From assembly GCA_903838295.1 (NCBI GenBank), contig CAILXX010000004.1:62001-126000 (forward strand): DNA of 64,000 nt, written 5' to 3'. The notes under the pieces are model-generated. The model did not search any database and had not been told where the DNA came from. It saw nothing but the letters and a program-made list of their open reading frames with translations. The stretch's first letter is position 1. Every line of letters starts with the position of its first letter. Position numbers and translations under genes: made by a program. This DNA is from an uncultured Actinomycetes bacterium (lineage in GTDB: Bacteria; Actinomycetota; Actinomycetes; Nanopelagicales; Nanopelagicaceae). This document shows positions 8,581 to 57,911 of the stretch, in pieces.

Positions 8581-8898
8581 TTATGAAGCAGAATTCAGTT
8601 CAACCTGGCGAAGGGCGCCGCGCTCTTCGGATTCAAGAATTGCTAAGCGATCATCTTCAGAGAGTCCGCCCCAAATTCCATAAGGTTCTTGTACGGATAA
8701 GGCATGTGCCCGACAAGCCTCGATTACTGGGCAAGTGGCACAAATGGCTTTTGCCGTTTTTTCGCGATTGACGCGACGTGGCCCACGTTCACCATCAGGA
8801 TGGAAGAACATCTCCGATGGGAGTGTCTGGCATGCACCTTGGTACTGCCATTCCCATGCAGAAGCTACGGGGCGCGGTAGTCGTGAAATTTCAGCCAT
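8581..8898 (-). CDS. whiB3: WhiB-family [4Fe-4S] regulator, WhiB3/WhiD type
   Basis: Small iron-sulfur transcription factor of 105 residues. The four cluster cysteines are C23, C53, C56 and C62, followed by the GIWGG turn (74-78) and an acidic/basic C-terminus. FFHPDGERG and CPVIEACRAHAL, together with its place beside groES-groEL1, identify the WhiB3 (mycobacteria) / WhiD (Streptomyces) branch. Family members act as redox or NO-sensitive partners of the primary sigma factor. The ATG follows an AGGAAGGAC ribosome site. It is expressed from a good promoter at 8927-8955 that carries an inverted repeat. Confidence 0.93.
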   Translation of the reverse strand: MAEISRLPRPVASAWEWQYQGACQTLPSEMFFHPDGERGPRRVNREKTAKAICATCPVIEACRAHALSVQEPYGIWGGLSEDDRLAILESEERGALRQVELNSAS

Positions 8899-8926
8899 GT
8901 TTGTCCTTCCTAAACTCTGTAAAGCG

Positions 8927-8955
8927 ACTATACAATCGTTTCATAGATTGTTCAA
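8927..8955 (-). promoter_or_regulatory. promoter of whiB3 (TTGAAC, 17 bp, TATAGT)
   Basis: On the minus strand, TTGAAC (8955-8950) and TATAGT (8932-8927) are separated by exactly 17 bases. The predicted start is near 8920, giving a leader of about 22 bases with an AGGAAGGAC ribosome site. One of only two clear two-box promoters I see in the window. Confidence 0.75.
8932..8951. promoter_or_regulatory. inverted repeat in whiB3 promoter spacer, candidate operator
   Basis: ACAATC, eight bases, GATTGT: perfect 6-base arms spanning the space between the -35 and -10 boxes of whiB3. This is the position bound by MerR-family regulators, and a MerR-type gene is divergently encoded next door. Assignment to that protein is inference. 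Confidence 0.5.
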
Positions 8956-9010
8956 CTATCTACTGTTCGAGTCATAAACGCTTCATATGGCAGAAATACC
9001 CCCTCTCCTA

Positions 9011-9016
9011 GATACT
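9011..9016 (+). promoter_or_regulatory. -10-like element, possible leaderless promoter of MerR/B12 gene
   Basis: GATACT followed by 6 bases and the ATG at 9023. It deviates from TAnnnT at the first base but has the same spacing as the other leaderless starts here. Confidence 0.4.
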
Positions 9017-9022
9017 TCGTCC

Positions 9023-9901
9023 ATGGCTTCCACTCCCAAATTTACGGTCGCGGCCGTTGCCAGGCGGCTGGGAGTCGCGCCATCAACCTTAAGGACCTGG
9101 GATAGGCGTTATGGCCTAGGGCCTTCCGACCATACAGATGGTCAGCATCGCAAGTACTCGCAAACAGATTTGGCACGACTCATCTATATGCATCGGTTGG
9201 TCATTAGCGGTGTCTCCCCAGCGGAGGCCGCGAGGGAAGCCCTCGAGTTCGCGGGAGAGCCGGCCTTAGACCCTCGTCTAGATACCACCGAGGTTGATAA
9301 AGGGACGGTGCAGATGCTGCACCGAGCGGCACATGCTTTAGACAGAGAGCTGGTGGATGGACGAGTGCGAGCCGAAATGGCTCGAAGCGGAGTAACTCAA
9401 ACGTGGCGGACCTTGTTGGTGCCATTGTTGATCATGATTGGCGATGATTGGGCTCGGACTGGCGATGGTATTGAAGTAGAACATATGGTCTCTCAAATTA
9501 TTCATTCAATTTTGTCAGAACGTGCCGTTATCAAGAACCCTGTCAATTCTACGCCGGTACTACTCGCTTGCATCGGTGAAGAAACCCACTCCTTAGCTCT
9601 CACCGCCCTGGCAGCATCCCTTGCAGAGCGAAATATTCAAGTCCATTTTCTGGGTTCCAGAACTCCCGTCAAAGCGATTTATGAAGTTGCTAGACGAACA
9701 GCGCCACCAGCGATCTTTTTATGGGCACAACTAGAGCGGCACGCTGATGCAACAATCTGTAGCTCACTACCAGTTGTCCGACCTGCACCTCGCTTGATTC
9801 TAGGTGGTCCTGGATGGTGCGAGAAGGATTATCCGGGAGCCTATGTGGTGACGGACTTGGTGGCTGCTCAACGTGAAATCGAGAACGCGATCGGTTTTTA
9901 G
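9023..9901 (+). CDS. MerR-family regulator with cobalamin-binding domain (CarH/LitR-like)
   Basis: Transcription factor of 292 residues. The N-terminal MerR winged helix spans about residues 6-75 (FTVAAVARRLGV, TLRTWDRRYGLG). A helical segment then carries W143-x9-E153-H154, the motif that caps adenosylcobalamin in CarH/LitR photoreceptors. A Rossmann-like domain follows with GEETHSLAL, where His189 would be the lower cobalt ligand; the usual ExHxxG is ExHxxA here. Known relatives repress carotenoid or light-response genes in the dark and release DNA on illumination. The start at 9023 follows a -10-like hexamer by 6 bases; an upstream ATG at 8987 would add 12 residues. Divergent from whiB3. 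B12 binding and light sensing are inferred from motifs. Confidence 0.82.
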   Translation: MASTPKFTVAAVARRLGVAPSTLRTWDRRYGLGPSDHTDGQHRKYSQTDLARLIYMHRLVISGVSPAEAAREALEFAGEPALDPRLDTTEVDKGTVQMLHRAAHALDRELVDGRVRAEMARSGVTQTWRTLLVPLLIMIGDDWARTGDGIEVEHMVSQIIHSILSERAVIKNPVNSTPVLLACIGEETHSLALTALAASLAERNIQVHFLGSRTPVKAIYEVARRTAPPAIFLWAQLERHADATICSSLPVVRPAPRLILGGPGWCEKDYPGAYVVTDLVAAQREIENAIGF

Positions 9902-9916
9902 CCATTTCTCTGCCCC

Positions 9917-11047
<1,131 letters not shown>

Positions 11048-57626: not shown

Positions 57627-57911
57627 ATGACTGAAAGTTCAGCCTCGAATAGAGCAGATTTCAGTACTTCCACTAACCCCATAGGCACCCCAGATTTATC
57701 TTGGCAAGAGCGTGCCTTATGCGCTCAGACCGACCCAGAAGCCTTTTTTCCTGAGAAAGGTGGATCTACACGCGAAGCAAAGCGGGTCTGTCTTTCGTGC
57801 GATGTGCGCAGCGAATGCTTGGAATACGCTCTCGGGCATGATGAGCGTTTTGGAATTTGGGGCGGTCTCTCAGAGCGCGAACGTCGTCGGCTCAAGCGCC
57901 GTTCGGCCTAA
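57627..57911 (+). CDS. whiB2: WhiB-family [4Fe-4S] regulator, WhiB2/WhmD type
   Basis: Iron-sulfur transcription factor of 94 residues linked to septation and cell division in actinobacteria. Cluster cysteines are C32, C55, C58 and C64; GIWGG is at 76-80, and the basic tail RERRRLKRRSA could contact DNA. The ATG at 57627 follows AGGAG at 6 bases; the longer upstream open frame is not used. The unusually long leader and upstream palindrome point to strong regulation. Gene order with manB-like and DUF3499 genes matches the mycobacterial whiB2 region. Confidence 0.93.
   Translation: MTESSASNRADFSTSTNPIGTPDLSWQERALCAQTDPEAFFPEKGGSTREAKRVCLSCDVRSECLEYALGHDERFGIWGGLSERERRRLKRRSA

Follow-up and report, generated by a model that had tools for sequence, protein, structure and literature searches.

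A CarH-like B12-type regulator divergent from whiB3 in Nanopelagicaceae, and a conserved operator-like element over the whiB3 promoter that suggests a light- or B12-responsive repressor circuit

The window, i.e. the whole stretch of 64,000 nucleotides that was analysed, contains a gene for a WhiB-type Fe-S transcription factor that lies back to back with a gene for a MerR-type regulator carrying a B12-binding domain. The DNA belongs to Nanopelagicaceae-like freshwater actinobacteria, and among the relatives with names in an alignment are Nanopelagicaceae, Nanopelagicales and Planktophila. The divergent arrangement claimed in the earlier note holds, with whiB3 at 8581-8898 on the minus strand and the open frame of the regulator at 8987-9901 on the plus strand. 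The features of the locus are:

8581..8898, minus strand: whiB3 (whiD orthologue), 105 aa, WhiB Fe-S transcription factor (open reading frame, Pfam and PDB match)
8927..8932, minus strand: whiB3 -10-like box TATAGT, 17-bp spacer (promoter scan)
8931..8956, minus strand: operator-like element, whiB-strand consensus CTTGAACAAYYTATGNNNCGRTTGTA (conservation across 75 family loci)
8932..8951, no strand: inverted repeat ACAATC-N8-GATTGT, of which only the outer ACAA/TTGT is conserved as a dyad (sequence and family alignment)
8938..8943, minus strand: TGAAAC, a degenerate second repeat 11 bp from TGAACA (sequence; a presumed likeness to the CarH repeat)
8949..8954, minus strand: TGAACA, a CarH-type TnnACA half-site over the whiB3 -35 box (sequence; CarH repeat consensus from PMC9304148)
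8950..8955, minus strand: whiB3 -35-like box TTGAAC (promoter scan)
8982..9016, plus strand: probable promoter of the regulator, with degenerate box TTCATATGGCA (TTTCAAGTGGYG in relatives) and -10-like TAGATACT at 9009-9016 (suggested by comparison with relatives)
9023..9901, plus strand: regulator with MerR helix-turn-helix (HTH), four-helix bundle and Rossmann B12-binding domain, 292 aa (open reading frame, Pfam, PDB and structural model)

The earlier note had called the neighbour whiB3, and it is a true WhiB3 orthologue: the product has a WhiB domain (Pfam Whib, E 2.6e-24) with the Fe-S cysteines (C-x2-C-x5-C) and the GIWGG turn retained, and its top PDB match is Mtb WhiB3 (8cyf, E 3.4e-34). 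A second, distant whiB-like gene lies elsewhere in the window (about 57663-57893, plus strand; 36% identity to whiB3). The regulator likely starts at ATG 9023, because a -10-like TAGATACT lies six bases 5' of this codon and relatives have a similar near-leaderless spacing; ATG 8987 is also possible and would give 304 aa. The regulator's own promoter (8982-9016; relatives L098-L137) and the actinorhodopsin promoters of some relatives (L309, L320, L333, L342 and L343) have in common the box TTTCAAGTGGYG with GANNAT 17-18 bp after it, an arrangement that could be the mark of another regulator or of an alternative sigma factor. As a general motif the box TTTCRRGTGGC was dropped, since the window holds five against 2.5 expected, which is not significant. 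The gene order groEL-whiB3-regulator-guaB is kept across the genus and family and in many of the families that make up the class. The IMP dehydrogenase at 9929-11047 (372 aa) aligns unbroken to the catalytic domain, and matches in other actinobacterial families (L218 and L227 among them) fall into two pieces some 345 bases apart, as if the enzyme of the Nanopelagicaceae-like family had lost its CBS (Bateman) module.

A promoter scan of positions 8860-9060 found two overlapping promoter-like sites against 0.2 expected, the better being TTGAAC-17-TATAGT (8955..8927, minus strand), the whiB3 promoter that the earlier note had proposed. The inverted repeat that the note had placed between the two boxes is indeed at 8932-8951; the perfect palindrome is not the conserved unit. 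Pairs 4/15 and 5/14 of the repeat are complementary in 44 and 52 of the 75 family loci (i.e. they fail in 31 and 23), while the outer ACAA/TTGT is fixed. These inner pairs show no covariation, and the repeat is therefore not kept up as a palindrome. Of dinucleotide-shuffled versions of the 88-bp spacer, moreover, 15.6% contain a perfect inverted repeat of 6 bp, and we rejected the palindrome as the key conserved feature.

What is conserved is an asymmetric element of 24-26 bp that lies over the -35/-10 region of whiB3 and encloses the palindrome. Conservation among relatives, the check that the earlier note had proposed for the repeat, thus applies to the enclosing element, whose 24-bp core has at most two mismatches in all 75 family loci, and not to the inner pairs of the repeat. 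The sequence ACAAYCGNNNCATANRTTGTTCAA was matched exactly in 61 of these loci, with one mismatch in 13 and with two in one; information was near 2 bits at most element positions from -1 to +23 and near zero outside, and several spacer bases between the -35 and -10 boxes were as invariant as the boxes themselves. The element is far above chance because it is conserved across the family, where a bare promoter spacer would be free to vary. A second genome collection, whose species partly overlap the first set, gave 62 loci with no mismatch, nine with one and two with two, three further loci having been extracted from inside or beyond the site. CarH operators consist of tandem 11-bp repeats (nnnnTnnACAn), one of which lies over the -35 box in Thermus (PMC9304148); compared with this design, the window has a single TGAACA, which overlaps the -35 box, and 11 bp further on the degenerate copy TGAAAC.

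We compared the distribution of the regulator and whiB3 across 296 genomes of the family. Both genes were present in 209 genomes and neither in 64, with the regulator only in eight and whiB3 only in 15 (Fisher p 5e-41, a value that ignores relatedness, with some absences being contig breaks). The whiB3 promoter could be read in 14 of the 15 genomes with whiB3 only (L147 is cut by a contig end), and in all 14 the element was gone or decayed and whiB3 directly faced guaB. One of these loci, L141, keeps TACAATCGC at the -10 side, has lost the rest of the element and has the consensus TTGACA as its -35 box. Mapping onto a guaB tree required four changes, three of them on well-supported branches, so that the regulator was probably lost at least three to four separate times, with genus g25 as an additional loss. 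The contrasts of a phylogenetic sign test all agree, but with three well-supported independent pairs only the test cannot reach significance (p 0.25); since the regulator and the element are adjacent, one deletion could also remove both. No genome of genus g25 has the regulator and almost none has whiB3; in the three with whiB3 (G116, G118 and G125) no guaB1 adjoins it, a pattern that reads as repeated erosion of the locus.

The pairing of regulator and whiB3 with a related element recurs in many families of the class, a homologue of the regulator at E 1e-20 or better being present in 159 of 326 class genomes. We read 48 loci outside the family, of which 35 gave a usable whiB3-regulator spacer, and these class-wide spacers held 22 occurrences of TGAACAA/TTGTTCA against 0.5 expected. 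In two loci of family f11, TGCACA and TGAACA lie exactly 11 bp apart, i.e. there are two exact TnnACA repeats, which matches the CarH operator design (PMC9304148).

The regulator itself has the CarH/LitR architecture of MerR domain (Pfam MerR_1, E 1.5e-14), four-helix bundle and B12 Rossmann domain (Pfam B12-binding, E 7e-7, just below the curated cut-off). A PDB sequence search placed CarH first (E 2e-19, or 1e-33 with a profile). An AlphaFold model (pLDDT 91.6) matched CarH over its length in Foldseek (best PDB match E 2e-15), and the B12 half of the model was nearest to the photocobilins and CarH (Z 19-20). The residues that form the adenosylcobalamin (AdoCbl) pocket in CarH (W131, E141, H142 and the lower ligand H177) correspond to W143, E153, H154 and H189, so that the earlier description of a MerR HTH with W143, E153-H154 and H189 stands, with correct numbering for ATG 9023; fold and pocket together also uphold its assignment to the CarH/LitR-like B12-type regulators. 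In the family, 67-68 of 68 proteins have each of these four residues, E187 also being near-invariant there, and among 48 class proteins the glutamate and the histidine are each kept in 47, the lower-ligand histidine in 46 and the tryptophan in 39. The position of CarH His132, the upper ligand of the light state, does not hold histidine: it is alanine in 34 and glutamate in 25 of the 68 family proteins. The glycine of HxxG is replaced by alanine or proline and the serine of SxL by an invariant tryptophan; GGPGW is nearly invariant. The light-responsive signature of B12 photoreceptors comprises GxxW, EH, GxxH and GxxxP (PMC11796333), of which GDDW, EH and GSRTP are present and the GxxH position reads EETH. 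The NCBIfam CarH equivalog model NF052513 scored 93.4 bits against a cut-off of 400.

Judging from the pocket, AdoCbl is likely to be the ligand of the regulator. The missing CarH residues, the weak Pfam B12 score and the existence in Myxococcus of a B12-independent paralogue, CarA (PMC9304148), would fit a regulator of whiB3 of the CarA type, for which B12 has no role and the signal is another protein, the redox state or another ligand. We consider this unlikely, as the near-universal retention of the tryptophan, glutamate and both histidines speaks against it and as some cobalamin photoreceptors have Arg, Gln or Tyr in place of His132 (PMC11796333). Variation at that position in other B12 photoreceptors means that His132 is not strictly required, although H132A CarH largely remains tetrameric in the light (PMC10442372). 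A supply of AdoCbl is plausible because a PduO-type adenosyltransferase was found in 40 of 40 genomes tested, though also where the regulator is absent, and clade acI-B is predicted to need external B12 (PMC5574706). Two observations concern other B12 proteins: L292 (G000 C6, 1171-1884) encodes a 238-aa corrinoid-type B12-binding protein that adjoins a reductase-like gene, and no MetH-size B12 protein was among the matches listed for G000, though most searched relatives have one.

We propose, with somewhat better than even confidence in the reading as a whole, that the regulator is a CarH-like AdoCbl-dependent repressor of whiB3 that is released by light or B12 shortage. Its parts differ in strength. 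That the regulator controls whiB3 via the conserved element is highly probable from the comparisons above; that it does so as a repressor is, on the analogy with CarH, the direction towards which we lean; and that light is the signal has about an even chance. The MerR/B12 protein would bind the element, which covers the -35 box and the spacer in the promoter of the divergent whiB3, and its AdoCbl-bound form would occupy it as a repressor. Loss or photolysis of AdoCbl, through B12 shortage or light, would then release whiB3, and its Fe-S protein could act at SigA promoters.

The same pair could work with the opposite sign, i.e. the regulator could activate whiB3 by recruiting or realigning RNA polymerase at the weak -35 box TTGAAC. 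MerR proteins often bind between the -35 and -10 boxes, and the earlier note had expected a MerR-type site there; a conserved operator-like element does occupy that place. Activation would also agree with the absence of whiB3 from 64 of the 79 regulator-less genomes and with the L141 promoter, which without the regulator keeps its -10 side and has a consensus -35 box. The promoters of MerR activators, however, have spacers of 19-20 bp, whereas that of whiB3 is 17 bp and already optimal; together with the position of the element over the -35 box and spacer, this suits a CarH-type roadblock repressor better than an activator that untwists DNA. The CarH proteins described are likewise repressors with repeats overlapping promoter elements (PMC9304148), and activation seems to us an improbable reading. 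Least probable is that the element is the mere whiB3 promoter, or is read by WhiB3, another regulator or a special sigma factor, with the neighbouring regulator as a bystander: the element spans the -35 to -10 region, so that its conservation is partly promoter conservation, and it is physically linked to the regulator, but many bases of the spacer vary no more than those of the boxes, distant families have the half-sites in their spacers too, and the element is lost where whiB3 and RNA polymerase are kept and the regulator is gone, which argues against WhiB3 or a sigma factor as its reader.

We also looked for further targets of the proposed repressor. Sites resembling TGAACAATCTACGAAACGATT occur 57-61 bp upstream of the actinorhodopsin start, in the whiB3 orientation, in five relatives, four of the same genus (G007, G019, G010 and G002) and one of another genus (G068). 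Four of these sites outscored every shuffle of their own upstream region and that of G002 outscored 95%. Such a site was found at the actinorhodopsin promoter in none of nine regulator-less genomes and was also absent from most regulator-bearing genomes, including the window's own, in which no convincing second operator-like site was found. A second match in the window's genome (C16, three mismatches) lies inside an open reading frame and was taken as chance, and a three-mismatch match recurring in two genomes (L223) falls within coding sequence. Further leads are an amino-acid permease gene in g19 (G068 and G070) and, in f5, one gene for a fasciclin-domain protein and one for an MFS protein; they are tentative because the looser pattern behind some of them matches about once or twice per genome as background. 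Operator-like sites also lie beside genes for fasciclin-domain proteins in two distant families (L377 in G359 and L378 in G370), in differing orientations. The most far-reaching version of the proposal is an ancient actinobacterial light/B12 circuit in which whiB3, and in some freshwater lineages also the actinorhodopsin gene, is repressed in the dark by a CarH-like AdoCbl photoreceptor that lacks His132; this we regard as a speculative possibility.

Each component of the system belongs to a known kind. The literature searched, which leaves most subscription journals outside its coverage, had no description of the subfamily, of whiB3 as its target or of an operator co-evolving with it; no paper in it mentions CarH together with whiB, and WhiB goes unnamed in those retrieved on LitR, on MerR proteins and on B12-binding domains. 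WhiB3/WhiD holds a central place in the redox and developmental regulation of Actinobacteria. With a dedicated conserved regulator whose operator follows it in evolution, an upstream input to whiB3 can be tested in laboratory reporters as well as in Planktophila strains in culture. If the proposal is true, abundant freshwater Actinobacteria would have a defined light/B12 input to redox control, extending to rhodopsin in some lineages, i.e. Fe-S redox control and phototrophy would be tied to light and B12 status in bacteria that rank among the most abundant in lakes.

The nearest solved structure is that of CarH from Thermus thermophilus, which shares with the regulator, as does LitR, the MerR HTH, four-helix bundle and Rossmann B12 domain and the motifs W-x9-EH, ExH and GxxxP, and which also has a TnnACA operator half-site over a -35 box. 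The two proteins are only about 26% identical; the regulator lacks His132, has the GxxH and HxxG glycines replaced and carries tryptophan for the SxL serine, and its presumed target is whiB3 and not an adjacent carotenoid operon. The photocobilins from Saccharothrix (8j2w/8j2x) and an Acidimicrobiaceae bacterium (8j2y) share the B12-domain fold, are the top structural matches and come from actinobacterial sources. Unlike the regulator they have no MerR domain, and they combine B12 with bilin photochemistry. CarA of Myxococcus xanthus is a repressor of the MerR/B12-domain type that sits over a promoter at an operator with inverted repeats (PMC9304148), but it is B12-independent, is controlled by an antirepressor and has a carotenoid target. 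CtMerR of Chloracidobacterium thermophilum (8jbs/8jbt; Z 18.5) is a MerR protein whose AdoCbl photoreceptor domain likewise lacks His132; it differs from the regulator in the sequence of its DNA-binding domain and belongs to another phylum, and it has arginine at position 132 yet is light-responsive (PMC11796333).
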